NCBI GenBank assembly: GCA_963575745.1
Contig: CAUYUJ010014323.1
Coordinates: 334,393 to 398,392 of the forward strand
Direction of reading: 5' to 3'
DNA: 64,000 bases
Origin: Prorocentrum cordatum
Lineage: Eukaryota; Sar; Dinophyceae; Prorocentrales; Prorocentraceae
Of this stretch, positions 1-63,822 are shown in pieces (the first letter of the stretch is position 1; every line of letters begins with the position of its first letter). The notes below the pieces were generated by a model that saw only the letters and a program-made list of their open reading frames with translations, was not told the origin of the DNA and did no database searches. The position numbers were made by a program, and so were the translations under genes.

Positions 1-1631
1 ATGTAACCATGCCTGTGCGGATGGTTCGGCGACGGAATTGCGCCGGGCACGCACTTTCAGGTTGGAGTCCAGATTGCGTTCGGCAGATCGACCCCATCAC
101 GCCTCATACCTTCCATCGCGTCCCGCATCTGTCGATGTATCCACTGCTGCTGTGCCAACATGTTTTTGGCCATTTGGGCCGTCTCCGTTGCGGGATGCAT
201 GTTGCCGTGCTGGTCCGTGATCACTGGCTGCCATGTCGGCCCATGTGGTGGTGCTGCAGCACGTGGGGATGCGAAAGGTGCTGTGGCCTGCAATGCCTGG
301 TAAGAGCTGGGGGTCCATCCGCATGCTCTGGAGTCGGGCCTGTAGGCTGTTGAGGCTACCAGCACTATGTGGCGTACCGAACGGTGTTGTGGGCCCGCTC
401 ATAGGCGCAAATGCAACAGGTTGCCCCGCGGGAATTGGCAGCTGCTGTGCCTGTGCGCGCCGCGCATCGTTGGCGAAAAGCCCATGCTTTGGAGATGCAC
501 CACTGGAGGTGATACCTGACACATCCGCGCTCTGGGCCCGAATCCAGGGCCCATCAGAGCCATCTGCAGGCACCCCCGCTGGATTCACCTCCTGCAACAT
601 GAGCACCATTGCATGATGCATCTCCGCTGTGGGTGACTTTGGCATGGGCACGCGCAGATTGAACGGTGTATCTGAATGACCCATCCCTTCGGCGTGAAAG
701 GGTCATTGTGATGTTCGTACCAGGCGTGCGGTACGGATGCAAGCATGTTACCATGCTGTGCTTCGGTGCAAAGCTCATAGACCCATGTCTGTCCAACCCT
801 ATGATGTCTGCAGCTGTCCACGTTGTCCTTGGCACCGCTGAGCCGGACAAGGGGGCGCGCTGGGATGCGACCCCTCACCCCCGAAGTCTTAATGATATCA
901 TTCGCAGATCGCCACACTGGGACGCCGTCGCGAATCATATTCTCGAGGCTCATGAATATCAACGCCTCGGCGTCTGCACTCAGGCCCGACTGAATACGTT
1001 GATCTCCAGGCAAATATGGGCATCACCCATGAATCCTCTGTCGACCCGGCTCCCCCTCGGGTTTGTCTTCGTCTCGGCATGACAGACCGATATGCAACAT
1101 GCTCGGGGTGTGCCTCCATTGAGTCCCATGTATGAAGTAGCGGGGTGCTCATTCCGCTGTCAGGTCCGTCACGTGCGAGCACAATGAATGTGGGCACTTT
1201 ATGCCTGCCGTTCGGCAGCTAACTCTGTCGTGCACGTTGCCGCGCGCGCAGTTGGGCACTTGACCGCCCTGCATCGGCTCGAGCCATCATCTGCAGTTCC
1301 ATCATGCGAAGGGCGAACTGGAATCTGACATTGGGTGCCACGTGCTTCCCAATAGCGCCTGCTTCCCTCTTCCACTTCAGGGGCGTCAGCAGGTTGCCCC
1401 GCAGATGCAGATGCAGAAAGTGCACCCGCGGAAGCCGGCGCAGCAGCAGGCTCTGCAGGTTTCCCCGCGCTTCCAAATGGGCCCTTTTCTCTTCTCGCGG
1501 ATGTTTTTGAACTGGCGCGCGCTCGCCTTTGGAGCTCCTGGCGGGCGCGCCTTGGACGTGACCTGGAGCTCTTTCTTTTCCGCATTCTGCTGCGAGGCAT
1601 GGTGCATAGTTGAACCATCCAGCGAGGGTGG

Positions 1632-3086
1632 TCAGCCAATTCCACGGCGGGGTCGGCCCGGAGTAGCACCGCGTCGCGGGGCAAGATTCCGCAGTTTGGG
1701 CGCGCTGTTACCCTGGAGTGCTGCCGCCGCGGCCGCAGCGGCCGGCCCCCTGGGGCGCTTTCTGCGAGCGGGTTGCCCCGCGGGCTTCCCGTCAGATCGC
1801 TTCGCTTTGCTTCTTCCAGGATCGACATCTCCTGAACTGGTCCGCTTCTTCGACCTCGTTGACCTCGGCGAGCTTGAAGATGGAGACAGATCCATGTCCT
1901 TCGAAGAGCGCTTCGGGCGCTTCGGGGGCCCATCTGCATTCCCAGCGGGTTCCCCCGCATCAGCGGGCTCAGCAAGTTTCCCCGCGCTCTCTCGTGGGGG
2001 GCCATGTGTCGGAGGCCCCCGTTCACGTCGGTAGCTCCTCGCGTTCTCGATATCGGCGTTCCTTTTGCAGTCCGAGTCATATCTTCCATCGGGCACCCTG
2101 CGTTGCACTGTAGTAAGCATCCAGCCTCTGCTTTTGGCTTTGATACGACACTGCGTCGTGTTGTGCAAGGATCGCGCCCTCCGTGACTTGCGCGTCAACG
2201 TCTCGCGGGTGGCTCCGTCAGTGTAGGACTCGCATTCATAGTCAGACGCAGGTGCAGTGGGATCGACAGCTTGTGCGAGGCCAGACGCCTCGTCTTCCTT
2301 CCCAGCCATAGCCGGCGGGTTAACCCGCGCGCCCTGGCCCTTGTCTGCGCCTTCGCGAGAAGAGGACGCCTCCCCCGCAAAGGGAGCCGCTCGTTCATTA
2401 AGTCGGGCCTCGCGCTCATGGCGATCGTGGCATGCCCGATCATGACACTTGAGTCGATGCTCCTCATCTATGGCTTGCCAATCCCTCTCGACGAGTGCTG
2501 CCTGGACCTCATCTAACGGCTTGTAGTCCGCCTTGGTCAGGCGCAGGCGGCCGGGGTTGCAGCCTGGGCCCACCTTGCGGCCTTCGCCGCCCCCGCGCGA
2601 CCAGACCCACGGGGTCTCCTCGAAGTTGGCGCTCCTCGAAGGGCGCCCCGCCGGGCAATTCGGCCTGCGGTCCGCGAAGTGCTCGCATCCACAGACCACC
2701 TCTCGGTGCTTCTTCCGATCCGCACAAATGCCTCCTTTGCAGGCCTTCTTCTCCGGCGTTTCAGGCTGCCGGACATTGCCCTTTCTGTTGGAACAAATGA
2801 TTTTGCCCGTTTCGGGGCCCCGCAATGACCAATGACGGCGGACTTGGTCGGGCCAGCCTTGTGGCCGCCATCGCGTTATGTACTCGCGCGGTGCCCGTTG
2901 GCGAGCAACGCCGTCGTTCCGTTCGCGAACTCTCCTGAATCGAGGCTGGTCTTCGGGTTCATCTGAGTGAGCCTTCATCGTCCCGATGCAGGTTGCGCCG
3001 CGACCATGCCCTTCTTGGCGGCCCACCGGATCTCGCGGGAGCGGGCGCGCGAGTGCCTGCGAGAATGACTCCTCCGATGATGGCAT
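1632..3086 (-). pseudogene. Charged low-complexity ORF of unknown function
   Basis: 484 codons without a stop, rich in Arg, Glu, Ala and Ser, with RRKRPRGP and KRPKRSSKDMDLSPSSSSP-type basic/Ser tracts that look like nuclear-localising or RNA-binding linkers. No recognised domain. It lies directly downstream of the zinc knuckle on the same strand and contains several GNRA-hairpin repeats (1768, 1945, 1972, 2315, 2988), giving peptides such as KPAGQPAR, GEPAGN and GKLAEP. I take it as the spacer between Gag and Pol of the decayed copia element, but it could be an unrelated gene. GC-rich sequence makes long chance ORFs likely, so coding is uncertain. Confidence 0.3.
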
Positions 3087-3230
3087 GGCGGGTTGCTCTC
3101 AGCTTCCCATTCCTCATAATCCTCTTCAGTCCGCTCTACGCGTCTCCAGGAATTGCGGCTCGATGGACGGTCGTGCAGCACGATGGTAAAGTGAGGACAT
3201 GTACTATGTCAAAGTTCGTTTTGGATCCGT

Positions 3231-3860
3231 TCAGGAAGTCATCAGTGTCGCGCGGGTTACCCCGCAAGGATCATCATCGCAGGTTGCCCTGCACGTAGGG
3301 GTTCCAGTCGCTTGCGGTCGGAGCGCCACTTGTAACTCCTTTTCCGTGGCCGGCATCGTGACGTCATCGGAACTATCTGGCTCGTATCCATCGGAGTGCG
3401 CAGGTGCCCCCGCCATCTCGCGCTCCGAGTCGGCAAAGGATTGGCGATCCTCGATGATCTCCATATACGCAGGTTGCCCCGCGATCGGGATGCCCGGCGA
3501 ATCTGCGAGATCGAGCTCGTCGTGGCCAACGAAAACCTCCTCGTAGAGATCCTCGGCGCACCTCTCGAGGGACGCGCTGGCGCCCATGCATCTCGCAGAC
3601 GTGAAATGGACAGCGGCAGCGGGGTTGTCCTCATCGACATACTGAATGTCAGAATCTGTTTGGGCCACATGCATCGACGGACCCCTGGCTCTCCCGTCGC
3701 CTCGGGGGCGGTCGCGACGAAAATGCTGGGTGCTATGGCACATATCGCACTCCATGGTCCCATTGGCATCCTTCGGGCGACCCCGACGTCCCTTGCCTTT
3801 TCCCGAAGTAAGCCTACGGCCTCTACCCTTCCCCAGGAAGACTTCCTCATACTTTGGTCC
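3231..3860 (-). pseudogene. Gag linker and zinc knuckle (one Cys lost)
   Basis: Reading from about 3860 gives KYEEVFLGKGRGR, then a GKGKGRRGRPKDANG linker, then CDMCHSTQHFRRDRP. The last is a CX2CX4HX4C zinc knuckle with the final Cys replaced by Arg, so zinc binding is probably lost. Upstream (3900-4039) the KGKGRGKGKRRR basic tract lies in a different frame, which implies a frameshift. Downstream the chain is acidic (DSSDD, DELDLADS) and carries two hairpin-repeat peptides, IAGQPA and ALRPQ. In an intact element this part binds RNA during packaging. The family is supported by the linker-knuckle order. Confidence 0.55.
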
Positions 3861-4045
3861 CGCGAGGAAGCCAGGAATGTTAGCATGCCTATGCCATGCA
3901 ACCGTCGTCGTTTACCTTTGCCTCTACCTTTACCCTTTGACCTAGGCGCGCGTCGGACCGCACGTCGCGCCCTTCGAACTGGTTTTTGCATAGAGCATCT
4001 CCATCGGCGCTTATGTTGGTGATTGCCCAAGAATATCAATTGTGC

Positions 4046-4849
4046 TTATTGTTCCTCGGTGCGCAGGCATATCAGAAAATCAATGCTAGCAATTCCTTCA
4101 GCTGACGAAGTGTCGGCATCGGCACCTGAGTAAAAGTCGGACTCTGCGGGTTGCCCCGACGAGCCCACTAACGTAGTGGCTTGGGTAGGGGCCGCCGTTG
4201 CCGACAGTCCGTGATAATGAACCCAGGAGTCTTCCGACCCCGAGGGCTGGCCACCTTGTTGGCTTAAAAAAATGGTGGCCTCGTTTGGTTGTGAATCGTC
4301 TGTCCAGATGGTGCTGGCAGGTGGCCCCGCATGAGTGTCACTATGAAAGACATCAGTGCGGCGACCGTGGCTGAACACACCACCAATGTTACCAGGGGTT
4401 CGCTCAGCGATGTGGGCGTAAGCCCTCATGCGGTCCAGTAAGGCGTCGAGTTGTTGCTGGATCCTAGGTATTTGGTGGTTCAGTGGTTGTAGCAGTTGTT
4501 GTGCACGCGAAGCACCGACACCAAGGGCCCTGAACAATATGACTGTCAGGATTTGGAAACTTGGGATGTTGAGCCCCGCAGCGTCGGCTTCAAAGCGTGC
4601 AATCTCGAAACGTGCCAGCGTCTGGTCGATCCGTTCTCCCGCATGGACGCGATAGTCAATGAGAGCCGTCCCCGAATTCAGGTGTCTTTCATCTTCAACA
4701 TTCTCGAACATAGTGCTGAGGAGGAACATTCTATGGGTGGCCCCATCGGTGTGGCGTCCACCAATGTTCACTCCAAAGTTGATTACTGCTGGGGTGACTA
4801 CCGTGGAAATCGTCCTTGCGAAAACTCCAAGGCCACGCTGTAGGAGCAA
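4046..4849 (-). pseudogene. Copia-type Gag capsid-like domain
   Basis: An open frame of 267 codons. Residues about 60-155 read as a helical Gag segment: ALIDYRVHAGERIDQTLARF, then a stretch with LFRALGV and LLQPL, then ERTPGN. This matches the arrangement of dinoflagellate copia Gag proteins as I remember it (a line with one partner sequence 'ID..L.RF', a Leu-rich helix, and a closing TPGN). In a full element it would form the particle that packages element RNA. The C-terminal part is Ser/Gly/Gln-rich and includes SSGQPAE, which is encoded by one of the family A hairpin repeats. The frame ends at 4046 and the linker and zinc knuckle follow in other frames, so the gene is broken. Family call from motif memory only. 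Confidence 0.55.
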
Positions 4850-5740
4850 CGGCCTGCTGGGGGGAAGTCGCAGCGCCTGTGGTCACGTTGATTCAGGCAT
4901 GTACCTCGCGAGCGAATTCGCGGAAAGGTACGTTACCGGCAGAGTCCCAGTGAGGGTCGGTAGTGCGCATGTCGTCTGCACCGTGTTGCATATGTCCAAC
5001 AGCACATCCTATGGCGACCCAGAGGCCAAATATAGTGATGCCTATCCAGTGGCCTCGTAGGTCGGCATCGGTTGTAGGTGACTGCTGTTTGTGGGGTGCT
5101 GTTGCCGTCAGTTTGCAAAGAGGTGCAGGCGGCACTATATCATAACGCATAACGCATGTTACCATGCATAGTATATTCAAAAAAAAATGGCGTTGATGGG
5201 TGGACTCCAAGAATGAAGTAGCACAGAGATGTGGGGTTCAGGTAGGATGCCTCTGCGTGAGCAGAGGCTTCAGTGCAAGTGTCCTCGCGATGGCCATGGT
5301 CTCCTCCGCGTAGAGCCAATGCGCCCTGATGGTCCACCATAGCAGTAGTCCACCAGATAGCGCCGTGGATCGCAAAGAGTAGAGCTAGAGCTGACCACCA
5401 ACGGCCAACTCTGCTACCAAGTTTAAAACCAGTTGGGAGACCCAACCAGATACTAGGCCAGTTGGCGTAGTACACGCCCAACGCTGTTGTATCGTATTAA
5501 CGAGAGTGCCAAAGGTAGGAGATGGCCGCGTGAGCGGCGAGGGAACATCTCAAGAGTAAAGGGTGGAACCCTTTCTGCTTCGATATCAGATAGCGGGCCG
5601 AGGTGCGACCTGGTCAAATTATCGGACGGTCACTTGAGAGCAAGCGGCCGCGGACAAACGCTCGATACCTCTCGCCTTTGCCCTTCCTCCTTCAAGGTTT
5701 GCGTGCATCCCCTACTCACCGAGGCCATTTTCCTCGTCCC

Positions 5741-6480: not shown

Positions 6481-6489
6481 ACGAGTTTC

Positions 6490-19445: not shown

Positions 19446-20388
19446 AGCTTTAGCCTTAGCTTTAGCTTTAGCTTAGCTTTAGCTTAGCTTTAGCTTTAGC
19501 TTAGCTTTAGCTTAGCTTTAGCTTAGCTTTAGCTTAGTGTTAGTTTAGCTTTAGCTTAGCTTTAGCTTAGCTTTAGCTTAGCTTTAGCTTAGCTTCAACT
19601 TAGTGTTAGCTTAGCTTTAGCTTAGCTTTAGCTTAGCTTCAGCTTAGTGTTAGCTTAGCTTTAGCTTAGTGTTAGATTAGCTTTAGCTTAGCTTTAGCTT
19701 AGCGTTAGCTTAGCTTTGGCTTAGCTTTAGCTTAGCTTTAGCTTAGCTTTAGCTTAGCTTTAGCTTAGCTTCAGCTTAGTGTTAGCTTAGCGTTAGCTTA
19801 GATTTAGCTTAGCTTCAGCTTAGCTTTAGCTTAGCTTCAGCTTAGCTTTAGCTTAGCCTTAGCTTAGCTTCAGCTTAGCTTTAGCTTAGCTTTAGCTTAG
19901 CTTTAGTTTAGCGTTAGCTTAGCTTTAGCTTTAGCTGTAGCTTTAGCTTTAGCTTAGCTTTAGCTTAGCTTTAGCTTAGCTTCAGCTTAGCTTTATCTTA
20001 GTTTTAGCTTAGCTTTAGCTTAGCTTTAGCTTAGTGTTAGCTTAGCTTTAGCTTAGCTTTAGCTTAGCTTCAGCTTAGTGTTAGCTTAGCTTTAACTTAG
20101 ATTTAGCTTAGCTTTAGCTTAGCCTCAGCTTAGTGTTAGCTTAGCTTTAGCGTAGTGTTAGCTTAGCTTTAGCTTAACTTTAGCTTAGCTTTAGCTTAGC
20201 TTTAGCTTAGCTTCAGCTTAGCTTTAGCTTAGCTTTAGCTTAGCTTTAGCTTAGCTTCAGTTTAGCTGTAGCTTAGCTTTAGCTCAGTGTTAGCTTTAGC
20301 TTAGCTTCAGCCTAGCTGTAGCTTAGCTTTCGCTTAGCTTTAGCTTAGCTTTAGCTTAGCTTTAGCTTAGCTTTAGCTTAGCTTTACT
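19446..20388. repeat. TTTAGCTTAGC satellite, 11-bp unit
   Basis: About 85 head-to-tail copies over 0.94 kb with scattered substitutions (GTGTTAGCTTAGC, CTTCAGCTTAGC variants). AT-rich against a GC-rich neighbourhood. It resembles but is not the plant-type telomere repeat TTTAGGG. No stop-free frame of note. Confidence 0.95.
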
Positions 20389-39500: not shown

Positions 39501-39844
39501 GGCCGGCTGCCCCGGCCGACTCCGCCGGCCGGGTGCTTCTCAGCCTGCGAGTTTCTGCGGCGCTTCTCAGCCTGCAGGTTTTGCCGGCTGTCCGCTTCGC
39601 ACGCCGCCCCTCAGCGCGCCCCTCTTCCGTTTGCAAGATGTCTTCCAAGAGTTGGTTGGAGGCTCGAGAAAGACAGACAAAACACATCGAAGGAGCGCGG
39701 TCATCATCCCATCATCGCACTCAATCATCACATCATCAATGGCTTCGCCGAGCACCCCGGTGGAGTCTCAGGTCTTACGAGTCCGTGCCCATACTACTAC
39801 TACTACTACTACTACTACTACGACATCGGGCTAAATCCGTTCAT
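39500..39844 (+). CDS. Fragment with two GASQPA hairpins, unknown
   Basis: A plus-strand frame continuing from the polypurine tract reads RPGASQPASFCGASQPAGFA then PLSAPLFRLQDVFQELVGGS. It ends in an ACT microsatellite. No family recognised. It may be a piece of a Helitron-associated gene because the hairpin family is the same. Confidence 0.3.
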
Positions 39845-41015
39845 GGGAGTGCCTGTTTTGGAGCTACATTCATTGATGCACGTGTGTCGTTTGAGAAACA
39901 GTTATCGAAAGCAGTGAGTCGTTCGAAGTACATCCGTTGATAGCAGTGTCTCGTTTGGAGCTAAACCTAATGAGAGCAGGGTCTCGTTTGGAGATACAGC
40001 TTTCGAAAGCAGTGAGTGCTTAGAATCTACATGCGTTCGTAGAAGTGTCCCTTTCGGAGGTACATCCGTTGATAGCAGTCTCGTTTGGACTTACATCCAT
40101 TGATAGCAGTGTCTCGTTTAGACCTCAATGCATTTATACAAAGGGCTCATTTGGATATACAGTTATCGAAAGCAGTGAGTCGTTCGAAGTACATCCGTTG
40201 ATAGCAGTGTCTCGTTTGGAGCTAAATCTATTGAGAGCAGGATCTCGTTTGGGGATACAGTTTTCGAAATCAGTGAGTTCTCAGAATCTACATGCATTCA
40301 TAGAAGTGTCTCTTTCGGAGATACATCCGTTGATAGCAGTGCTTCGTTTGGGCCTACATCCATTGATAGCAGTGCCTCGTTTAGACCTCAATGCATTTAT
40401 ACAAAGGTCTCATTTGGAGATACAATTATCGAAAGCAGCGAGTCGTTCGAAGTACATCCGGTGATAGCATTGTCTCGTTTGGAGCTACATCTATTGAGAG
40501 CAGGGTCTCGTTTGGAGATGCAGTTTTCGGAAGCAGTGAGTGCTTAGAATCTACATGCATTCATAGAAGTGTCTCTTTCGGAGATACATCCGTTGATAGC
40601 AGTGTCTCGCTTGGACCTACATCCATTGATAGCAGTGTCTCGTTTAGACCTCAATGCATTTATACAAAGGGCTCCGTTGGAGATACAATTATCGACAGCA
40701 GTGAGTCGTTCGAAGTACATCCGTTGATAGCAGCGTCTCGTTTGGAGCTAAATCTATTGAGAGCAGGGTCTCGTTTGGAGATGCAGTTTTCGGAAGCAGT
40801 GAGTGCTTCGAATATACACGCATTCATAGAAGTGTCTCTTTCGGAGATAAATCCATTTATCGCAGTGCGTCGTTGGGGGCGCACTCCATTGATGGCACTG
40901 TCTTGTTTGGAGATGCAGCTTTCGAAAGCTGTGAGTCGTTTGGAGCTAAATCCATTGATAGCAGTGTCTCGTTCGGAGATGGGCTAGTTGATAGCAGTGT
41001 CTCGTTTGTACTACT
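39845..41015. repeat. Large TTGATAGCAGTGTCTCGTTT minisatellite array
   Basis: About 1.17 kb of 33-bp units in a higher-order pattern: unit types with GAAAGCAGTGAGTCGTTCG, GAGAGCAGGGTCTCGTTTGG and GATAGCAGTGTCTCGTTTGG recur in the same order roughly every 300 bp. The plus strand is open for 198 codons (11-residue repeats like SIDSSVSFGPT), a consequence of a period divisible by three. Confidence 0.9.
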
Positions 41016-50271: not shown

Positions 50272-53244
50272 TCAACGGTGGCTGCCAGGGGGCCAAGGGC
50301 CGAAAAGGCTCCGTTTCCCACCACGGTTATAAATAGTTTCTCCCCGCTGGACCGGCTTGGCCGACCAGTAGAGAGGTCCGCGCCCAGCACGCTTAGCGTG
50401 CGGGTAAAGTGTTTGTTGTGCGCATGCCGCAGGCGGAGTCACGCGGGCCGCGCTCAGTTGAGCTCCCTCCACGGATTCCACGAACTCTCTCGCCGGGGCG
50501 GCGCCGGAGGCGGCGGGTTTGAAGTCGCCGATCCTCCCGTCTGTACGTCCATAGCACGAGGCGTGCGAGATCGCCCTCTCTCTCTCTCTGTCAGCATTTC
50601 CAACCTGTGCCGCCTCTCTTGGCGGGAAATGATGATCCTGCTCCCACTTTGACAGCCGGGTCCAGTAAGGCAAATTGTACCACTCATCGTTAGTAAGCCA
50701 CGTGATCCTGTTCCGATGGAGGTGATATCCCACAAGGATTCCGTTCACGTGGGTCGGGTAGGACTGGTCGGGGTCGTGCGCGGAGCCGTGTCCTGCGGCG
50801 CTGCTGGCAGCATCCGAGGCAGCGCCTGCGGCAGCGTCCGCCGCCGCGGGCAGCGCAAGGCCGGCGGCATCATCGGCGGCCGCAGCAGAGGCATCATCCA
50901 TGGCTGCATCGCGCGCGCGTCGCGAATCCGACCGATCCCTCGCGTTGGGATATTGTAAGTTAGCGTCTCTGGTCGGCGCGGCTGAGCCGGCGACAGAACG
51001 TGGGGAACCAGTAGCCCCCTCAGACGCCTGAGCATCTGAGATGCCAGGTCGAAGAGACGGCGTGCGAGATAAAGGTCTTGCCTTTGGTCCAGCAGGCAGA
51101 CGTGGCCCCGCGATCTCGGCTTCGCCGTCGTGCTCAGGGTCATTATCCCTACCGTTCATAAATTGCAATATGTTTCTGGCAGCAGTTGCTGCAGCGACAC
51201 CGTATAGACCGCATGCAGTGCGGAACGGACCATCTTCCTTGTCCTGAAGATCGGTACCGGGGTCAGGATACTTATCCTGTAGCCAAGTTATGGCCTCTTG
51301 TATTATAGCACCGTGGCGACGGACGTCATTCTGCACTTTCCTGCCCATCTTGCGGGCCCATGTTTCTATGATGTCGTCTGTCTCAACAGCCGCCCGAATT
51401 CGGCAGTCCAAGGCGTATGCGTCGGTTCGTTTCTTTGATTCAGTATCATTCGTGCTCATCCTTTCGGGGCGAATGATTCGCCCCGTGTAACCAATAAAGT
51501 GGTCCTCCGATATAAAATAACTGATTATCTCACGAATAATTGCGAAAATCATTATGGGTCGAAGGCCCAGTTCCATGTTTTGTGTTGTTACTAACCAATT
51601 TTCGTCCACTATTTTCTTGATGATCGCCGGGATTGCGTAGTCCGTCATTCCAATCAGGTTAACCCTGCCGGGCGTATTAGGGTTTGTTCCCGTGTGTTCA
51701 ATTATAGTATGAGCGGCAACCTCTCGAACTTCGTACCCGAACAATCTTATTCTAATTAGACGGTCCTCATGATGAAAGTATACGTGTCCATCAGGTGTAC
51801 CAAGTGTGAGGAATCCGTCAGTTATCGACGCAGCCTTAGGCCCGCTGATCACTTTGAGGTCCAGATCCATTTGCGTCAGTTCACGTGCCCTCGCGGCTGA
51901 GCTGGAGGCATGTCGCAACACGGGAACTATGAGACGATGGTCTCGACACATGCCGACCCGTCTTGCAACGGAGTGAGAACTGCGAGTCGGTCGCGCTCTA
52001 AAGTTGTTCTCCCAGACGACCGGTAACCTCGCAGGAGGGTTGTCGTAGTTGGCGTTGTTTCCAGCACCTTCAGGAAATACGCCAAACCATGACATGTCAA
52101 AATTTATGGCATCATCTACTGTGGCAAGCGTGGGAACAAAGAGGTTTGCTCTCCTCATGTTGTTGAACCATTGTGCCCAGCCAATCCTAGGTGTGATCAA
52201 GTCATCTGGTTCATCAGGCCATTGAAATGCTAGTAGTGCTGGGCAGGATCTGGGGCGAGCGTACTGATCAAAACCTGTCGCCCATAATTTCGGCCACCAT
52301 TTGTTGATAGACGGGGTTCGCCTGTGTGCATTTCTGGCCGAGTATTCTAGCCACGATATAAATCTCTTGACCAAAGGCCTTAAGTATTCAAAGAAAGGGG
52401 CATGTCGCGCCGGAGGCTGAGCCTCGGCGTTCTCTGGGATCCAAGCTGGAAAGTTTCCCTGCTGGCTGTTGCCAAATATTGCGCCAGCAGCCGCCATTGT
52501 GGCAAAGCTGGTTTCCCATTTTCGCTCCTGCTGACTGTTGTTGGCGACGTTTTTCGCAACGTTAGCAGAAGCTCTCCCTTGTCTCCTTATCCGCGCCTCC
52601 ATATATACGCGACGATCCCATGACAGAGATCCTTCGTCCTCCACAATTATGCAAATTCCATGTGCCGCAAGGGATTGCGGAATAGTTTTGTACTTCCATG
52701 TCTGGGTCATGTAATCATGTGAGACCCTATACTTATATCGGATTGGGCAACTACAGACGGGACAGTCGGCAAAACCCGTCCTCACCCAGTGGTAACGGAA
52801 GCAAAGGAATCTCCCATCGTCATCCCATGGGGTAGATATAATTCGATCTTGAGTCGAAGTGTCCAATCTTGGTTCATGGTCCCAATTAATAATCAGTCTC
52901 TCGTCTGTATTAACCCGAACAATAATCGACGCGCCGTCGAAAGTGACCTCGCACGAAGATAATTCGCGGTTAAAGAGTACCGTCCAGCGCATCTGATTCA
53001 TCTGCCTCACGAGCGAGACGGCTTTGTCGATGTCGGTGAACCTCGGTACCTCCCGGGACACCAATGTCCCGTCTGGGCATACTCTGTACGAGAAGCGGGT
53101 GAGTACTCTGCCGGTGAAAACGAAGATAATATCCCATTGTTCATGATGCTTGAAGTTGGGGAGACATGGCCAGAGATGGCGTATGTCCTCCACGCTCAAG
53201 GTACCCACCTTTGGCGGCTCCCCATCCTGAGCCTGATTACCCAT
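50272..53244 (-). CDS. Large unknown protein (about 990 aa)
   Basis: Uninterrupted frame from ATG 53244 (MGNQAQDGEPPKVGTLSVED). Balanced composition for about 700 residues, with patterns of an ordinary globular protein: FKHHEQWDIIFVFTGRVLTR, CPVCSCPIRYKYRV (two CxxC-like Cys pairs, possibly metal-binding), WPKLWATGFDQYARPRSCPA, HVYFHHEDRLIRIRLFGYEV. The last 290 residues are Ala/Asp-rich with one family C hairpin (VAGSAAPTR) and a WW-like HLHRNRITWLTNDEWYNLPY. I recognise no family. The AT content and synonymous-looking variation suggest real coding. It lies last in a minus-strand series that starts with a retroelement RNase H, so it may belong to that element. Confidence 0.6.
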   Translation of the reverse strand: MGNQAQDGEPPKVGTLSVEDIRHLWPCLPNFKHHEQWDIIFVFTGRVLTRFSYRVCPDGTLVSREVPRFTDIDKAVSLVRQMNQMRWTVLFNRELSSCEVTFDGASIIVRVNTDERLIINWDHEPRLDTSTQDRIISTPWDDDGRFLCFRYHWVRTGFADCPVCSCPIRYKYRVSHDYMTQTWKYKTIPQSLAAHGICIIVEDEGSLSWDRRVYMEARIRRQGRASANVAKNVANNSQQERKWETSFATMAAAGAIFGNSQQGNFPAWIPENAEAQPPARHAPFFEYLRPLVKRFISWLEYSARNAHRRTPSINKWWPKLWATGFDQYARPRSCPALLAFQWPDEPDDLITPRIGWAQWFNNMRRANLFVPTLATVDDAINFDMSWFGVFPEGAGNNANYDNPPARLPVVWENNFRARPTRSSHSVARRVGMCRDHRLIVPVLRHASSSAARARELTQMDLDLKVISGPKAASITDGFLTLGTPDGHVYFHHEDRLIRIRLFGYEVREVAAHTIIEHTGTNPNTPGRVNLIGMTDYAIPAIIKKIVDENWLVTTQNMELGLRPIMIFAIIREIISYFISEDHFIGYTGRIIRPERMSTNDTESKKRTDAYALDCRIRAAVETDDIIETWARKMGRKVQNDVRRHGAIIQEAITWLQDKYPDPGTDLQDKEDGPFRTACGLYGVAAATAARNILQFMNGRDNDPEHDGEAEIAGPRLPAGPKARPLSRTPSLRPGISDAQASEGATGSPRSVAGSAAPTRDANLQYPNARDRSDSRRARDAAMDDASAAAADDAAGLALPAAADAAAGAASDAASSAAGHGSAHDPDQSYPTHVNGILVGYHLHRNRITWLTNDEWYNLPYWTRLSKWEQDHHFPPREAAQVGNADRERERAISHASCYGRTDGRIGDFKPAASGAAPAREFVESVEGAQLSAARVTPPAACAQQTLYPHAKRAGRGPLYWSAKPVQRGETIYNRGGKRSLFGPWPPGSHR

Positions 53245-53417: not shown

Positions 53418-54612
53418 ACCCCTCACACGTTTCGTGGCCCCATTGGGAGCTCCAGCGAAGGCCCCAGTGGCTGCGCCCCCATGCGCCCGCCGCACCCATT
53501 TCGGCACACCCCTCACACGTTTCGTGGCCCCATAGGGAGCTCCAGCGAAGGCCCCAGTGGCTGCGCCCCCATGCGCCCGCCGCACCCATTTCGGCACACC
53601 CCTCACACGTTTCGTGGCCCCATAGGGAGCTCCAGCGAAGGCCCCAGTGGCTGCGCTCCCATGCGCCCGCCGCACCCATTTCGGCACACCCCTCACACGT
53701 TTCGTGGCCCCATAGGGAGCTCCAGCGAAGGCCCCAGTGGCTGCGCTCCCATGCGCCCGCCGCACCCATTTCGGCACACCCCTCACACGTTTCGTGGCCC
53801 CATAGGGAGCTCCAGCGAAGGCCCCAGTGGCTGCGCTCCCATGCGCCCACCGCACCCATTTCGGCACACCCCTCACACGCTTCGTGGCCCCATAGGGAGC
53901 TCCAGCGAAGGCCCCAGTGGCTGCGCTCCCATGCGCCCACCGCACCCATTTCGGCACACCCCTCACACGTTTCGTGGCCCCATAGGGAGCTCCACCGAAG
54001 GCCCCAGTGGCTGCCATGCCGCACCCATTTCGGCACACCCCTCACACCCCTGGCCCCAGTCCAGCGAGCTCCAGCGAAGGCCCCAGTGGCTGCGCCCCCA
54101 TGCGCCCGCCGCACCCATTTCGGCACACCCCTCAGACGTTCGTGGCCCCATAGGGAGCTCCAGCGAAGGCCGCAGTGGCTGCGCTCCCCTGCGCCCGCCG
54201 CACCCATGTCGGCACACCCCTCACACGTTGCGTGGCCCCATGGGGAGCTCCAGCGAAGGCCCCAGTGGCTGCGCCCCCATGCGCCCACCGCACCCATTTC
54301 GGCACACCCCTCACACGTTTCGTGGCCCCATAGGGAGCTCCAGCGAAGGCCCCAGCGGCTGCGCTCCCATGCGCCCGCCGCACCCATGTCGGCACACCCC
54401 TCACACGCTTCGTGGCCCCATAGGGAGCTCCAGCGAAGGCCCCAGTGGCTGCGCTCCCATGCGCCCACCGCACCCATTTCGGCACACCCCTCACACGTTT
54501 CGTGGCCCCATAGGGAGCTCCAGCGAAGGCCCCAGTGGCTGCGCTCCCATGCGCCCGCCGCACCCATTTCGGCACCCCCCTCGCACGTTTCGTGGCCCCA
54601 TAGGGAGCGCCA
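53418..54612. repeat. 90-bp tandem repeat, about 13 copies
   Basis: Unit landmarks are CCCCTCACACGTTTCGTGG, CCCCATAGGGAGCTCCAGCG, AAGGCCCCAGTGGCTGCG and CACCCATTTCGGCACA. Starts are spaced exactly 90 bp from 53510 to about 53960; one copy near 54010 is shortened and diverged. Two plus frames and at least two minus frames are open across the whole array. Confidence 0.95.
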
Positions 54613-54710
54613 TCGAAGAAGATATTCACAATTGCGGCACTCGCAACTGCATCTGGTTGGGTCCTTCGCCAGGATAATTTTAGTGGGCGCTTGTCCATAT
54701 CTCCTTTGGC

Positions 54711-55022: not shown

Positions 55023-56586
55023 TTATTGTGTTTGCCCCACAGAGCGTGGATAGCGCTCCAGTAAATATTGGGGCTGTCTTTGGGGGAAATCCCCAGAACA
55101 TCAATTGTCCCCGCCGGCAACGCAGCTAAACTGTGTGCAGCCAAGGCGTACGATTGGAAAGTAAAACCGTCATCGTATAAGTTCTGCACCAGGTCCCCAA
55201 AATAGACCCAGCCTCCTGACGACCTAGCATAGTCCGAACAGTGCCTCGCGATGTATACAGCACATTGGCTTATTATTTTGGCCAAATCATCCGCTCGGAA
55301 ACTCAGGCCGCTCCAAGTGTCCGAACTGCCTAAGGCAGCCGGGTTTTCGTCGTCACCTTCTCCAACTATAAGTGGCCGCAAGCATGCATAGGCGCCCGGA
55401 GAAAAACCATCAGGGCAGTCATCGGAATGCAACTCGGCTCTCATATAATCCTTTGCATACGCGAAAGATCCGTCGTCTTGGCTGAGACCTGCCAATATTG
55501 CAAAGATTGGATATTCCACAAATTCTGCCGCGTAGTTCCCGTTTGCTTACGGATGGCTTCGACGTTGGGTGGTACAGGGCCCGTGATATGGGCGTCCTGG
55601 AGCATCTGCTTTAGAGGCTCAGGCGTAGCATGAAGTATGCGATGGCGTTCCTCCGTTGTCACATACAATCGTTTCTCTTTAAATTCAGCGGCATGCCCCA
55701 CCGTTACATCTCGGCCCCCATCGTGGGGGTCCGAGCATTGCGGCCGTCCCTGCCTTTTATCTGGAGTAGGCGGAAGGCACAATCTTCGGAACATATTCGT
55801 GGACGCCGGTCCGTGTGGAAAAGTTTCATCATCCATTGACTCCAGAAAATGATGATCTTTCTCGTGCGGATACTTTGAGCAAGAGTCCTCCGATTCCACG
55901 TCCATTTCTTGTATTTCCGGGTGGCCTGAGGCCCCCGGTGGCGATGGGGCTCGGCCTTTGGGAAAATGTTGTGCCCCATCATCGTTAATATGTGATGCTC
56001 CCTCGTCCGACGGCACTTGCGTCGGACTCGATTGTTCATCTTGTGCACCACGGCGGCTCTCCCGTTCCGCTCCGGCTGAGCCAGGCGGAGGGGCAGGAGG
56101 GGTAGGCACTCTGCCCAAGCCCCCAGAACCTTCTGCCTTTCTACGTCTCGACCATCGAGGTCCGTCCGCTATCATCGGAGTGCGCACAAAATTGCTGTCC
56201 ACCCTCAAAATTTGTTCGCCGATAGCATCAGCAAAGTCATTCCACGCGGCGGAAAATGTGTTTATCTGCTCCAGCTCTTCTGATATATTCACCTCGTAAA
56301 TGCTTTTCGCTGTCTTGATGTATGATGCGGCAGCAACTCCGAACCTTTTCATCAGAAGAGTGTTGTCCTGGGCGTCATTAGCTCTCGATTGTAGCCCTCG
56401 CAAGTGGTAAAAGATGTCTTTTTCATTTCTCAACGCTGAACTGGATCTCGGATACTCAAAATGCAAACACGAGATCTCTTTTATTGTCATTATGATGGTA
56501 GTAAAATCATCATCTCCTTCCAATTCGGGTGAACACAGAGATGAATGACCCCCGTCCGACTGAGCCGTGGGGCTAACGTCGCGCAT
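55019..56586 (-). CDS. Unknown protein in two overlapping frames
   Basis: The first frame (ATG 56586 to 55441, 381 aa) has a helical N-terminus (LRNEKDIFYHLRGLQSRAND, IYEVNISEELEQINTFSAAW), a Pro/Ser/Glu-rich middle with one family C hairpin (PPGSAGAE) and EERHRILHATPEPLKQMLQD. The second frame (55519 to 55019) reads SQDDGSFAYAKDYMRAELHS, IISQCAVYIARHCSDYARSS and GGWVYFGDLVQNLYDDGF. They overlap by 79 bases and both look coding, which suggests a frameshift near 55480 in one original protein. No family is assigned with confidence. Confidence 0.45.
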
Positions 56587-58262: not shown

Positions 58263-58297
58263 CTGATGGGCAAGCCACCCCGGGCTACTCGCATCTT

Positions 58298-59110
58298 TTA
58301 GGATCGTTTCCGTTCTGAGCTTTGAGGGGGATCTCTGCCCTCAGCGACCTCAGCAGCTCGTCCCTCTTCGCCTGGGTATGCATTAAGCGGCATCATGCCC
58401 CGGTGAAGACTGCCACTGGCGACCGTGAATATGCAAAGGACATCATGACGAGTAACCTCACCCGTCTTTGCATCTTTTATCGGCAGATCCTTTATCTGCT
58501 GATACTCCTTATGGATCGGCCACAAATATTATTCCTCTCCAGGGCATCCTTCTTTCGGTCTCCTTGGAAACCTGCTCTTTTGCCTCTTACTAATCAAAGT
58601 CAGTTTACCCTCGGGGCAATTCTCACGAATAGTCCTTTTTTCAGCTGTTTCCCCGGGGGGTTCGATATCCTTGATATTGGTCGCAGGAGCCAACGGAGGG
58701 GCGCGTGGCGACTGAGCCGCCATTGCGCTAGAACCAGAGCCCGTTCCGGCTGAGCCGACGGGTTTGGCCTAATCAGTTGCGGCAGCAACGCCGGGCTGGC
58801 CGGTCAAAACTTTAGTAAACACAGGGACCGAAATATCACCTGGCGTTGCACTACTTGCCGCAACGGCTAAGCCGCTCGGTATCGCCGCCGGCGCTGCTTT
58901 GTGGAGTTCCCTGAGTACGGCACGCATTGGCTCATCGTTCTGGACTCCCTCGGTCGCTGGTCTCTGGGTCTTCCCACTCGGTGGCATTCCAGGACAGAAG
59001 ACTCCCCTTCGGGGCAAAAAGTAAGCATCATCTTTCCATGGGAAGAAGTCCTCATAGACACCTCCCCTTTTAAGGAAGTCTTTAAATTCGTCTGAATAGA
59101 ACGAATATCT
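58298..59110 (-). pseudogene. Unknown protein segment in three frames
   Basis: Pieces: YSFYSDEFKDFLKRGGVYED then FFPWKDDAYFLPRRGVFC (about 59110-58980), ELHKAAPAAIPSGLAVAAS (to 58769), MAAQSPRAPPLAPATNIKDI (58723-58529), then MWPIHKEYQQIKDLPIKDAK with FTVASGSLHRGMMPLNAYPG (58525-58298). Each is short and in a different frame, so the original gene is broken or contains short introns. Family C hairpins at 58706, 58747 and 58862 lie at the junctions. Confidence 0.35.
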
Positions 59111-59125
59111 AGCACTGCCTCCAGT

Positions 59126-60085
59126 TCAATTCGAAACGACAGGGATGCGTTCGTCGGTCAGTCTTTCCTTAAATGGGAGCGCGCCTAGTATCGACCTGGG
59201 AATGTTACCTTCTGCGGGGGACCAGTCCTGCCAATACGTGACAAGATCTTGGACTTTCGCCTCCTGTTGGGCGTACTTGTCCTCCCTCGCCGGGCAGGTT
59301 ATGCGGCCTTCCCCGACGGCTGAACCGCCGGCAGGTTGACAGAAAAATGATACAGCCAGTTTGGCCGATTTAATCATGTATTCGACACATAATTCCACGG
59401 CAAGGACCTTCCGGGATTTTCCCCCGTCAAACACTTGATAGTCATCATGGGAAGCACAGAAATGGAAAGCATCCTCATTGCGGTGCCTAAGCTGGCGGCA
59501 TAGGCTGACACCGTCGAGGATCATTATTCTGGGGAATAATCCAATCGTTTCAAAGTGTTCAATCCGACGGTTCATTCCGGCTCGGACCATAGTGGCAACA
59601 TCGTCCCACATCGGGCCGGCGCCGTCATCATCTATTTGCCGACACGTCGAGTCCCCGCCGACATACATTATGTCTATAGTCCCTTGTTGGGACCGTTTCA
59701 TTATATCGTCAATCAAATCCACGGCGTCCTTTATCATCTGCCTGAGGCTTCCTGCGAAAGTAGACGGATTCTCAGTTCGTTTGCCTCCACTGCCGACTCC
59801 GTTCAATTTGCCCGATTGGTCAACAATGTCGTTGAGATTCCAGAAAGTGAAGCGAATTGGGGTGTGAGTCCCCTCGTTGTAATACCATTGTTTGCCCCGC
59901 TGAAAGTTCGCAGATTCGGCGGCAATGCCGTTGAGTAGTGCTCCGCTCTTAGCCGATTGTGCGCTTCCAAATGCCGAATTTCGCAGGTGATACTCAGGCA
60001 TAAGGCTCGGCTTCGCCACCCCTGATGCGTCCTTGAACGCATTGCGGAGCCGGACGCGATATGAACGGAACATGACCAACTACGA
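59126..60085 (-). CDS. Unknown protein with GGDS motif
   Basis: Same strand, in a frame shifted from the preceding polyprotein at about 60085. Reads FRSYRVRLRNAFKDASGVAK, YNEGTHTPIRFTFWNLNDIV, TIDIMYVGGDSTCRQIDDDG, MNRRIEHFETIGLFPRIMIL and FHFCASHDDYQVFDGGKSRK. The IMYVGGDS strand-turn is faintly like the GDS block of SGNH hydrolases, but no matching His block is seen, so I do not assign it. One family C hairpin gives GGSAVGEGR at 59313. Confidence 0.45.
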
Positions 60086-63000
60086 CAAGACCCATTCTTC
60101 ATCTGGGTCAGCGGTCGGAAGAAGTCCGTCACAGACTTCCCCGTGGACGACATAGTGGCGAGGTCTTCTCCAGTGAATGGAATCCATGAGTGACCATGAA
60201 CCTCGGCGATCTTTGTGATCGCCTGACATTTCTCTGCAAAATCCAGGCTGCCCGACCAGAATCTCAATTTTGGGTCCGTGACTTCCATATAAAGGTCCAG
60301 GATTTCACCCACTATTACTCGCCATTCATCCCGGGGGGGCGAAACACGCCCAAAGCTCCCTTTCATGCGAAGATACTCAAGGACGTTCCATGGGCCGCGA
60401 CCGATGCAAGGTTTGTCTTCGGGCTCGGGTTCTGACGCTGCGGGCCCCGAGTCCGGCGGCCCACCTCCTCCTCCTCCTCCCCCTGAGGGGGGGGCGTCGC
60501 GTGAGGGGAACCCGCCAGATGGTGGTTGATCCCCACTATCGCCGGCTGAGCCGTGAGGGGGAGCTCCACCACTGCCTCCACTGGCTGAGCCAAGAGGATT
60601 CTCAACGTAGGGAGGCTGGCCGGCTGGTGGTTCGCCAGCCGCCTGTTTCGCATTCCCATGGTCATCCAATGATGGCTGATATTGACCCACAACTGCAGGT
60701 TGACAAGTCTCGGCGATCGAGTCGTCAGGCGCCTCCGTTGCAGTCTTCGGCTTCTTTTGCGGCGAGTCCTCATCGGCATCCGGGTTGAGCCCGTCTTCGG
60801 CAAGCCATTTCTCAAAGTTCCGTGGCCTCTTCCAGGGGCGTTGTCTTTTCCTCCAGTGCACTGCCTGCGTAGGTGCGTCCTCGAAGCACGCCGCCTTGGC
60901 GGCGGCAGTAAGGGCTTCCTCGACCACGTGCACGGGTGCACTGTATTTTCCTTTGACCACTGGAAAAGCGAACATCGTTCCCCACCCTTCCCCGACGGCT
61001 GAGCCGCGGGGAGGCTTCCGAGAGGAAGGCCTCCAAATATCAATCCAGACCTTTTGATCGCCCTTTTCAACGTGCTCCGCCACTGGTGCACTCACATTGG
61101 TGCCCCAGTGGGTCTCGCAGTGAACGGCTGGGCCGACAGTGGGACCAAACGCTTCTCCCGGTTCGAGCGTTCTGATTATACCACGAAAGCTCTCTTCTGG
61201 GGGGTCCGTGTACATCCGACTGATCAGCTTCGTCTTTTCGTCAGGATACGTTTGGAGGAACGTTCCTTCGGGGATTTTGTCGACGTCAGGAGGGGCAATA
61301 TCGAAACGGCAAGTATCCTTCCGCTCAAACATAATCCAATGTACGGTCCATGGGTCTTGGGAGATCTGGGAGTACAAGCGCTGGAATATCGTCTGAGACG
61401 TTGTTTCCAGGTCCGCCCTCAATGCAGTCGCGACGGCGTCATTTCTCGTGTAAAATATGTCGTTCTTCCACATTGTGTAGCGCCAACCCCAGCCCTTTGA
61501 CGGCACAAACTTGACAGTTCCGTCTTTGGGTCCCGCACGGGACCACTCCCTCAGTTTATCAGGGAAGCACTTAAAGACTTCTGTATTCCTCCATGCTTCG
61601 ACGTCTTCTACGTCGGGGCCAGTCAATTTCTTTGAGCGAGGACTGTCCTGGGGGGCAGTTTCAATTTCAGCATCATTTTCTGATATAATGTCATTTGGAC
61701 TGAAGTGTTCATGTCCTGCCCCATCCGGCTGAGCCGGTGGGCAAGCCATCGGCTGAGCCGGCGTCGAGGCTTTTCGAATTCTGGCGAGGAGATCATCATT
61801 GTAATCCTCTTCCTCTCTGCCCTTGTCGACAACATCGTCGGAATCAATTTCATCCACGATGTCGTCGGAATGGAATGAGATCGCGTCATCACTCAGTGAT
61901 CCGTCCGCCTTCTCCCCCAGCGGACGACACATGGGTTCAGTCGTCGGTGTCTCCGGCGCGCGGAAATCGCGGCGAGCGAGATTCGAACAGTCGCGGCAAG
62001 GCAACCGCTCGCCGCTATGGGGGGCCGGTCGCGGGGCAGCCCGCGCAGACTGTCGAGCCGAAACGGCGGCGGCGCATATAGGATTTGGAAAGGAGATAGG
62101 ACGACGACGAGACGATCCACCACTCTCTGCAGCGTTGGCGACGGCGAAATGAACTTGCCTGGGAAAATCACCGGTGTAATCTTCAGCGCTCTTACACTCT
62201 CGCCCCCTAGCCTCAACATGCTCACGTGCGCCATCACATCCACGCTCTAACCCCTCCGCAACGATGGGAGAGGTGGCGGCTATCGCCCAGGGCTTTTTCA
62301 TGACATTTCCCTTGCTATCCTTCAATCCGCACGCGCACCCGCGCGACGCCGCCTTGGCAAATCCCAACTCTCGAAGAAAACTCTTTACCTGAGGGTCTCT
62401 CCAATAATTACATTGGGTAGGCCATTCAATACATACAACGCCCCCCGCTTTGTGCACAGCGCGGGCAATCTCGCAGAAATTCCAAAACAGATAACGGAAA
62501 TCAGTTCTAATGCCCCGAAATCTGCGCATAGCCCTGTGATTTCCGGTACGGAAATAATTCGCTTCGTTCACATGCTGCCAAGGGGGGCCTCCTGTACACG
62601 GCATGGAGCCCCACGACGTGATATGTTTTCCCTTAAGCGCAGCTATGTCGTTTAGCGCTATTTTGAGTCCCTCATCCGTCCTCATGTATTCTTCCTCGGT
62701 GTATCGAGTCACTTTACATGAGTTGTCAACGAAATTCTTCGGGTCTCCTATTCTACTTTGGGGGCCGCAGCAGTACCCTAATAAAAATCTTTCCCCGGTC
62801 CACTGAGAGGCCGGGGCGCAATCTTCTCGCATTTTAAATTCTGTGTATCCAATCCATTTGCTGAGGCAATAATCACCGTCGCTACAATCGCCATCTGAGT
62901 CATATTCAAATGGGTGATGATATCTGCTTTCTTCGTCACGCCAATTATCGATGCGATCTATCGTCAAACCTTGTTGGGAGTTGACGGCACATGTGCGACG

Positions 63001-63822
63001 TTTGTCCTCAAGCTTATCAAGCTCGACGGGGCAATCCCCGATTGTCGACATAAACGTGACAAGTCTCGGAACATAGTGATGTCGTATCAAATTCTGTCCT
63101 TGTCTCATCCATTCGTCCCTTTTATCGGAGAAGTTGGCAGCCGCTGCAGAGTGCGGATTGCGAAGCGGGCGATCGTCGTTAGAAACAGCCTCCCTGTTTT
63201 CAGGTCTCTTGGAAGGCTCTGACTCGCTTTCACTGTCCGATATTCCAAACATGGTTTTCATCTCACGATCGGAGCTTCTTTGTGTTGCGTTTTCAATCGC
63301 TCTCGTTTTCTCGGAGCTTCTGCTGTAACACTCTTTGCCCATTCGAGGAATGGCATTACCTGCGACATCGGCTGAGCCGACTGCATTCTTCGTCTTTGAT
63401 AGCCCCTCGGCTTGGCCGGGGGCAGCCACAGCGGGTTTGCCTTTGCTGGGGCGCTTTTTCTTTTTGTTTGACTTTTTGCTAGGTATGGCAGCTCCTCCCC
63501 GCAAGGCCGAACTAGGGCCTAGGCGGGGCTTGAGGGCCCCCCCGGGTTTCAGGGGAAGTCCGTCAGAAAACGTTGAGTCAAGATAATCTTGGCACCGCTT
63601 AGCGGCCCAGAACTTAGGCGTCACTATGTTGACGAGGTGTAATACTTTGACCCATGCCATTGGGTCAACGAATCGCTTTGTTCCAATATCTGCAGCCTCG
63701 TATTGTGTTCTTTCGTATTGTAATTGAACAAGGCCACGGGACAATTGTTCGGACACAGCTGCTGCATCGATTCTATGCGTTCTTGGTAGGTGCGTCAGCT
63801 TCATTGACCCGCCTGCCTTCAT
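60086..63822 (-). CDS. Retroelement polyprotein segment with MTase-like module
   Basis: A frame of about 1240 codons continuing from the RNase H at the window end. It starts LPRTHRIDAAAVSEQLSRGL then LQYERTQYEAADIGTKRFVD, the end of a copia-type RNase H. A basic Lys/Ser spacer follows, then a Cys-containing region (GYCCGPQSRIG), GKHITSWGSMPCTGGPPWQH (about 62625-62569), GGVVCIEWPTQCNYWRD (about 62440), KKPWAIAATSP and GCDGAREHVEARG. This is the same motif order as the module in the copia Gag-Pro. Then acidic linkers, TVHWIMFERKDTCRFDIAPP and FAEKCQAITKIAEVHGHSWI. Frame is lost near 60085. Eight or more family C hairpins lie within it. Confidence 0.6.

Follow-up and report, generated by a model that had tools for sequence, protein, structure and literature searches.

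Three families of short hairpins repeated along three mobile elements (Helitron, copia-like, gag-like) of the dinoflagellate Prorocentrum cordatum

The stretch of Prorocentrum cordatum DNA described here (contig CAUYUJ010014323.1, positions 334,393 to 398,392; 64,000 nucleotides, hereafter the window) contains three families of short hairpins, each belonging to a different kind of element. F1 (GCGGG-GNRA-CCYGC) is found in a gag-like element, F2 (a 6 bp outer stem, a bulged T and GCT-NCTC-AGC) in a Helitron, and F3 (CGGC-TCA-GCCG with an outer stem) in a copia-like element. The gag-like nature of the F1 host is our presumption, as is the “RNase H-like start” of the copia-like polyprotein. The hairpins are repeated, confined to one strand in each sequence examined and conserved in their pairing (F1 weakly), occur in more than one frame (F2, F3) and often persist at orthologous sites.

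In the window, F1 at up to two mismatches has 15 sense matches and 1 antisense match between 0.4 and 5.2 kb, the latter a near-symmetric copy at 2315, and 3 matches elsewhere. F2 at up to three mismatches has 20 sense and no antisense matches at 25.4-39.7 kb and none elsewhere, and all ten exact F3 copies (GGCTCAGCC) lie on the minus strand within 50.98-63.37 kb. Once tandem arrays are masked, almost every one of the most-copied dispersed 10-12-mers belongs to the F2 or F3 core; the other frequent ones are CTCCTCCTCC, two GCC-rich strings and GCACCGCTGC, and F1, being too variable, falls below the thresholds of this count. Exact counts over the 4.13 Gb assembly, with the reversed pattern as control, give 805 against 0 for the F2 18-mer, 2065 against 62 for the F1 15-mer, and 912 against 743 for the F3 13-mer, a weak excess that is unconvincing by itself. 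These counts confirm the initial annotation, which had placed one family in each element type at these loci. Its further statement that the copia element at 41-47 kb has none of the three holds at the main thresholds (F1 at up to two mismatches, F2 at up to three, F3 exact); three mismatches admit a single F1-like and a single F3-like match there.

General hairpin enrichment is a poor measure of these families. Stems of at least 5 bp are about twofold enriched over shuffled sequence in the F1 region (23 vs 11.1) and the F3 region (15 vs 6.4 and 33 vs 19.6) and are not enriched in the Helitron open reading frames (ORFs; 10 vs 11.3 and 12 vs 18.7), and the copia element at 41-47 kb has 11 stems of 6 bp vs 3.6 in shuffles. 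Scans of the window gave no Rfam match at the gathering score and no tRNA match, and searches of an open-access library found no description of such hairpins.

Homologues of the Helitron_like_N ORF number 80, and most of them come from ENA and JGI sets. In this genome it has 66 scored matches among 2308 candidates (the protein searches scored only candidates sharing most words): one is the window itself, two stand at 94% and 63 at 92%. Other Pfam matches on window ORFs are a weak RING match below the cut-off and a few weaker still. Among the first 30 of the 805 genomic F2 matches, taken as a sample of loci (designated L with a number), 17 have a same-strand match to Helitron proteins or to the Helitron-side ORFs of the window, one (L006) has an opposite-strand match, and 12 have no Helitron match within 3 kb; one of the latter, L029, lies 5.3 kb from Helitron locus L028 on the same contig and strand. 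The F2 pattern also occurs in four stretches of viral contigs; the Helitron profile found no relative among viral contigs and matched one bacterial metagenome-assembled contig among genome contigs. Several repeats accompany the Helitron. A 189-bp coding repeat (63 aa) adjoins it at 25971-26684 and has a related ORF at L022 (85% identity), and a minisatellite with a unit near TTGATAGCAGTGTCTCGTTT occurs within the Helitron region and to either side of it (29115-29951, 36350-36587, 38837-38948 and 39857-41008). A 51-73-bp tandem repeat (CATTCCCGGGCCACATTTTGAATGCC...) adjoins the element at 25255-25424, 36584-36868 and 38947-39230, and similar arrays stand after the end of homology in L068.

For F1 the context consists of three sequences, the window, L066 and L067. 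L067 is a copy of the element, 77% identical, that covers window positions 1-3950 and not the gag-like ORF; tblastn with this ORF found no match in L066 or L067. Eight relatives were found for the ORF, two of them ENA proteins and the other six from EukProt under the name Pyramimonas sp., a naming that may reflect contamination, misnaming or transfer. For F3, three loci chosen for clustered exact matches (L070, L071 and L072) are copies of the window element at 82-90% identity.

Conservation of pairing

The F2 unit comprises 23 nucleotides: six outer pairs, a bulged T (sometimes C), GCT paired with AGC, and the loop NCTC. Many of the sampled loci are copies of each other, and the 205 exact cores from the 30 loci and the window were therefore reduced to 41 non-redundant contexts. 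In these, four of the six outer positions pair significantly more often than in shuffles: -3/18 in 31 of 41 vs 16.7 (GC 11, CG 7, AT 6, TA 4), -2/17 in 36 vs 26.2, 2/14 in 38 vs 32.8, and -4/19 in 26 vs 19.7 (P = 0.012). Pair 1/15 is nearly constant, -1/16 falls short of significance (34 vs 31.4, P = 0.055), and no position is significant from the seventh on. Pairing in two shifted registers stays close to the chance level, apart from single positions at P = 0.015, 0.028 and 0.041. For the window copies alone the signal is weaker, with a covariation score equalled by 1 of 500 shuffles.

The same fold can be recognized in proteins. If the arms pair, residues 1 and 5 should have second bases that pair with each other, and codons 0 and 6 should be reverse complements. 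Among the unique 7-mers of the 80 Helitron proteins, residues with G as second base occur with P 62 times and with L 5 times, and residues with A as second base occur with L 18 times and with P 3 times (Fisher P = 1.5e-11), so that the alternation of G-type..P and D-type..L motifs (NDAPQLV, AGAPQPG, IDAPQLD, ICAPQPN, VGAAQPD, DGVLQPV) represents covariation of the F2 arms. Complementarity between residues 0 and 6 holds for 94 of the 119 unique 9-mers vs 44.6 in permutations, and for 19 vs 10.4 (P = 0.0014) when reduced to 34 distinct pair types. The control registers 0/7, 0/5 and 1/6 are at chance level, and register -1/7 indicates that the stem continues (34 vs 20.9, P = 0.0009, by codon complement). 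A nucleic-acid fold is thus detectable from metagenomic proteins alone. Codon usage agrees: in eight Helitron hairpins of the window, T is the last base of 30 of the 32 codons counted (numbers 1, 2, 3 and 5), a third base with an overall frequency of 12% in those ORFs (GCT 20% of Ala and CCT 28% of Pro codons, hairpins included). The most freely varying residue of the motif is the one at the loop position.

For F3, changed core pairs of the 11-mer at up to two mismatches still pair in 9 of 11 cases vs 5 of 36 elsewhere (P = 6e-5). An alignment of 21 cores, of which 13 are distinct, has 98.1% of its cells paired, a value equalled by 2 of 500 shuffles. Each copy's own outer stem is better than swapped flanks (P = 0.001, 19 copies); the same comparison gives 0 of 10,000 for 19 non-redundant contexts that include genome copies, and P = 0.0096 for the 5 contexts new to the window. 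Against L070-L072, nine doubly compensated pair observations fall at four sites, some common to several copies, and 30 pairs are kept after a change on one side; this comparison used minimum-energy structures of 39-nt windows, which makes its outer pairs noisy.

As a conserved fold F1 is the least secure family, though as a repeated sequence it is secure. Its unit is 14 nt with GCAA as the commonest loop, and the loop is GNRA in 33 of 62 copies of the non-redundant three-mismatch set, so that the GNRA label suits the core copies better than the fringe. F1 sites coincide between the window and L067; one differs by two compensated pairs (GCATG-GTAA-CATGC vs GCGGG-GTAA-CCTGC) and others by wobble.

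The fold is hence conserved, strongly in F2 and F3 and weakly in F1. The initial claim that compensating and wobble-keeping changes reveal a fold that matters is clear for the first two families and weak for the third. Covariation above background, whose absence it had named as a refutation, is present in the outer pairs of F2 in the contexts sampled, and its description of hairpin size has to be enlarged for F2 and F3, which have variable outer stems and a bulge.

Strand, frame and origin of the copies

Each of the 31 sequences with exact F2 cores has all of them on one strand. The same applies to F1 at up to two mismatches in two sequences (11/0 and 19/0) and to the exact F3 core in four (10/0, 6/0, 5/0 and 7/0). 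Neighbouring matches were compared among the first 100 places listed per family, many of which are copies of one element. Among these, F2 neighbours within 10 kb share the strand in 14 cases and oppose it in none, F1 neighbours within 20 kb in 30 and none, and F3 neighbours within 20 kb in 26 and none (beyond that distance, 7 and 2). At any distance on the contig, the listed F1 neighbours are on the same strand in 46 cases and on opposite strands in 1; this long-range sharing may come from insertion along one-way gene arrays.

A G.U pair on one strand is an A.C mismatch on the other, and an excess of G.U therefore marks the strand that is likelier to fold. On the sense strand G.U exceeds A.C by 28 to 9 in F2 (the constant G.T left out), by 38 to 6 in F1 (where the search itself allowed one G.U position) and by 6 to 2 in F3. 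Judged from these sequences, folding is likelier on the sense strand than on the other.

The copies do not stand only inside reading frames, as initially annotated they would. Of the 19 F2 copies analysed in the window, 14 are in ORFs and five lie outside the Helitron ORFs (at 36.1 and 39.5 kb), and F2 copies outside recognisable coding sequence are also present in L008, L011, L068 and L069. The frame is not fixed either. A conserved protein of L006 and L029 has two F2 hairpins in a different frame, where they read VLLSL; the two proteins are 80% identical over 320 codons, have the coding signature of differences at codon positions one, two and three (41, 31, 92), and show no Pfam match at E <= 0.01. 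F3 is read in two frames, as GSA and as AQP.

Many hairpin sites of all three families are common to diverged copies of the elements, at orthologous positions. Extra copies are partly tandem, as in L011, with four F2 copies 30 nt apart, and in L067, with F1 at 6821 and 6839. Clean insertions were not seen. None of the 14 F1 hairpins listed in the window or L067 has a precise empty site in the other sequence (two fall in an unalignable stretch), and 39 site-by-copy comparisons of F3 showed no gap at a paired position. In the Helitron comparison, in which 9 of 30 loci aligned with the window, F2 sites differ by a linker change and by a 24-nt deletion in L037/L038; this deletion, with a 9-nt indel just upstream in the same alignment, is the only clean hairpin difference, and it is a loss. 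Around the F1 and F3 cores (11-14 nt) no flanking duplication was apparent by eye, and the flanks are unlike each other. Together, shared sites, tandem extra copies and loss without clean insertion speak against tiny mobile elements.

Candidate roles and rival explanations

The folded form itself appears to have a use, possibly that of a tag marking each element's own RNA. Our best explanation, to which we give about an even chance, is that the three families are dispersed, element-specific, cis-acting stem-loops similar to packaging signals, acting in sense RNA or, for Helitrons, in sense single-stranded DNA. The unit would be a constant loop and inner-stem core (bulged in F2 and F3) upon a variable, pairing outer stem, which F2 and F3 show and F1 does not. 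Repeated along the sense strand, in coding linkers and outside recognisable coding sequence, such hairpins would act in a single-stranded form (mRNA, genomic RNA or, in the Helitron, possibly a displaced DNA strand) as multivalent putative binding sites for an element-encoded or host protein, by which each element may mark or package its own nucleic acid. Copies would multiply partly via local tandem duplication and be retained in frames that, as a rule, encode a harmless flexible linker. The initial suggestion of RNA structures amplified within each element fits this arrangement.

In single-stranded RNA viruses, according to PMC6281560, dispersed packaging signals are many stem-loops of the genome with a common recognition motif. 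The hairpins described here share with them the large number, the common core and, in F2 and F3, the variable paired stems; in F1 the core is common, and stem variation is small and weakly supported. Confinement to the sense strand is a further likeness, with the antisense F1 match at 2315 as the exception. The viral partner is the coat protein, whereas here the partner is putative and one of the hosts is a DNA transposon.

Several results weigh against this explanation. Helitrons lack a capsid that could take up packaged nucleic acid. Swapped outer stems serve F1 as well as its own (P = 0.41), F1 pairing within the window reaches at best 13 of 19 vs 5 of 17 (P = 0.044, mostly G.U) and drops to 4 of 11 vs 9 of 34 (P = 0.70) with Y allowed, and the stem is broken in L067 at 4 of 11 window sites. 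If only the window copies of F2 are taken, doubly changed pairs number 4 vs 4.0 expected and the outer stem is not significantly better than swapped ones (P = 0.10); in the proteins, the control register -1/6 has a weak signal (43 vs 30.4, P = 0.003). Other settings weaken the test of the F3 core (11-mer at up to three mismatches, 16 of 50 vs 67 of 402, P = 0.012; 13-mer at up to three, 16 of 27 vs 16 of 79, P = 0.0004; 13-mer at up to two, 5 of 11 vs 1 of 7, P = 0.32), and against L070-L072 changed pairs are broken in 51 cases vs 39 kept. Helitron proteins and element copies are moreover related and non-independent, which makes the P values optimistic.

A more specific version can be proposed only tentatively. 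Unrelated dinoflagellate elements (Helitron, copia-like, gag-like) would each have evolved a private RNA stem-loop barcode, repeated over the entire sense strand and read by a putative element-specific protein, allowing recognition of self RNA in a nucleus where mRNAs share one spliced leader. What we take to be the dinoflagellate spliced-leader 21-mer has 14,218 exact copies in the genome vs 0 reversed, which supports the initial attribution of the DNA to a dinoflagellate. If the packaging-signal-like reading is true, transposons in a eukaryotic nucleus have, within their coding sequence, structures of RNA (or single-strand DNA) that are repeated, under selection and different between element types, linker peptides such as GASQPA are explained as by-products of folding, and there is a direct handle on how elements recognize their own transcripts in giant dinoflagellate genomes.

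Palindromic repeats within reading frames, adding a short peptide to the protein, are known as Rickettsia palindromic elements, and these insert in either orientation. The initial annotation had considered tiny mobile elements of this kind, inserting in frame into transposon genes. Their likeness to the present hairpins lies in the palindrome in an open frame (not every copy here is in an ORF), and the many copies, the several frames, the copies outside coding sequence and the copy numbers differing by lineage would agree with mobility. The units here are only 11-23 nt, however, with one strand in all sequences examined and many ancestral orthologous sites; the F1 and F3 cores of 11-14 nt have dissimilar flanks without visible duplication, no precise empty site was seen, and the sole clean difference is a deletion. 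Among the copies compared, this explanation is disfavoured and has little probability left. Inverted repeats in protein genes have also reportedly been described in Nematomorpha mitochondria, where coding palindromes are said to be perfect and up to 284 bp long; those here are short and have a common core. A mutational origin is somewhat less improbable. Template switching in quasi-palindromes yields compensated changes without function, and together with tandem duplication, of which L011 and L067 offer examples, it could keep arms complementary without selection. It leaves unexplained the constant core of each element type, the single strand, and the fixed stem length and bulge.

Selection on the peptide, with GAxQPA, AGxPA and GSA as useful motifs or linkers and the hairpins as by-products, appears very improbable. 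In its favour, the 80 Helitron proteins contain 100 matches to the GAxQPA-type frame in 51 proteins (7.5 expected; some are conserved-domain sites) and none to the other two F2 frames, and the motif sites look like linkers in an alignment of 50 sequences (the window and 49 of the 80 homologues). Residues change in complementary pairs, however, with T-ending codons, the F2 hairpins of L006 and L029 encode VLLSL in a conserved protein, F3 uses two frames, and some copies lie outside coding sequence. The initially proposed counter-explanation of ancestral conserved peptides is accordingly right about the age of the sites and not about what they keep, which is the pairing. A more plausible rival, though still an unlikely one, takes F2 as internal copies of a terminal hairpin that the Helitron Rep protein reads as a terminator in single-stranded DNA. 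The terminal hairpin of the Helraiser Helitron is known to serve as a terminator (PMC5876387), and it resembles F2 as a hairpin on one Helitron strand. F2 accompanies Helitrons on one strand (the 17 same-strand loci) and recurs in the 3' flank past the helicase ORF. A terminal hairpin would stand just before the 3' terminal tetranucleotide; the near-identity of two copies stops shortly past two F2 hairpins, at a point that may or may not be the terminus, and further F2 copies follow. Against this rival, F2 has many internal copies, 14 of the 19 analysed in the window being in ORFs, and two non-Helitron elements, in which no Helitron protein was found, display the same pattern with their own cores, F1 and F3.

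Feature coordinates and neighbouring repeats

Table 1. Hairpin copies and host reading frames in the window.
Feature	Position	Strand	Remark
F1 hairpin GCGGG-GCAA-CCTGT	416-429	-	same site in L067
F1 variant GCATG-GTAA-CATGC	743-756	-	orthologous L067 site is GCGGG-GTAA-CCTGC
F1 hairpin GCGCG-GCAA-CGTGC	1232-1245	-	C-G replaces consensus G-C
F1 hairpin	1389-1402	-	
F1 hairpin, GAAA loop	1455-1468	-	
F1 hairpin, consensus	1768-1781	-	
F1 hairpin, GGAA loop	1945-1958	-	decayed in L067
F1 hairpin, GAAA loop	1972-1985	-	L067 lacks one pair
F1 hairpin, TTAA loop (not GNRA)	2315-2328	-	
F1 copy, one stem mismatch	2988-3001	-	
F1 hairpin, GTAA loop	3252-3265	-	L067 lacks one pair
F1 hairpin GCAGG-GCAA-CCTGC	3279-3292	-	decayed in L067
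F1 hairpin, GGCA loop (not GNRA)	3400-3413	-	
F1 hairpin, consensus	3469-3482	-	
F1 copy, first pair lost, long outer stem	4146-4159	-	
F1 hairpin, GCCA loop (not GNRA)	4317-4330	-	
Presumed gag-like ORF of F1 element	4046-4882	-	8 relatives; some keep AGQPA at the same two places
F2 hairpin, 23 nt	25638-25660	+	
F2 hairpin	25701-25723	+	
F2 hairpin	25746-25768	+	
F2 copy, degraded core	25845-25867	+	
F2 hairpin	25875-25897	+	
F2 hairpin, GAPQPA	27770-27792	+	
F2 hairpin within SSGALQPVAD	28791-28813	+	orthologous site kept in many Helitron homologues
F2 hairpin, 13-bp outer duplex	30522-30544	+	half lost in L037/L038
F2 hairpin, GAPQPA	31263-31285	+	
F2 hairpin, GAAQPA	31809-31831	+	
F2 hairpin, SAPQPP	32547-32569	+	
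F2 hairpin, GPPQPA	33849-33871	+	
F2 hairpin, CAAQPA	34755-34777	+	
F2 hairpin, SASQPA, 8-bp outer stem	35277-35299	+	
F2 hairpin, flank outside Helitron ORFs	36125-36147	+	
F2 hairpin, flank outside Helitron ORFs	36148-36170	+	
F2 hairpin, flank outside Helitron ORFs	36173-36195	+	
F2 hairpin, flank	39528-39550	+	
F2 hairpin, flank	39555-39577	+	
Helitron-associated ORF with DUF6570	27144-28475	+	
Helitron_like_N ORF	29977-31998	+	Pfam 26.3 bits, below cut-off 28.9
PIF1-like helicase ORF of Helitron	32407-35490	+	weak Pfam match, 17.6 bits, cut-off 25.9
F3 hairpin CGGC-CAA-GCCG, outer CTGG/CCAG	50353-50363	-	
F3 hairpin, GSA frame	50979-50989	-	
F3 copy, A.C mismatch	51894-51904	-	
F3 hairpin AGGC-TCA-GCCT (compensated)	52414-52424	-	
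F3 hairpin, outer TCCGC/GCGGA	56073-56083	-	
F3 hairpin, G.U pair	56557-56567	-	
F3 hairpin, TAA loop	56908-56918	-	
F3 hairpin, TAA loop	57286-57296	-	
F3 hairpin	58709-58719	-	
F3 hairpin, outer CCCGT/ACGGG	58747-58757	-	
F3 hairpin, TTA loop	58864-58874	-	
F3 hairpin, U.G in core	59317-59327	-	
F3 hairpin	60543-60553	-	L072: two pairs compensated; L071: three broken
F3 hairpin TGGC-TCA-GCCA (compensated)	60582-60592	-	
F3 hairpin, outer CCCCG/CGGGG	60996-61006	-	
F3 hairpin	61125-61135	-	L071: two pairs compensated
F3 hairpin CGTC-TCA-GACG (compensated)	61390-61400	-	
F3 hairpin, PAQP frame	61726-61736	-	
F3 hairpin, PAQP frame	61750-61760	-	
F3 hairpin, GSA frame	63369-63379	-	L070: core pair compensated
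F3 hairpin CGGC-CAA-GCCG, outer GCCCC/GGGGC	63408-63418	-	
Copia-like polyprotein, 3' part, F3 host	59803-63849	-	27% to P0001 (carries PF07727)

The window has further repeats. A 90-bp minisatellite of 13.5 copies (53418-54618) is open in frames of up to 603 aa on both strands. At 19446-20386 the 11-mer AGCTTTAGCTT is arrayed in 85.6 copies, and the segment 12030-12170 contains a hairpin with a perfect stem of 14 bp as well as GCGCGAATAACTTCGCGC twice, at a distance of 95 bp.

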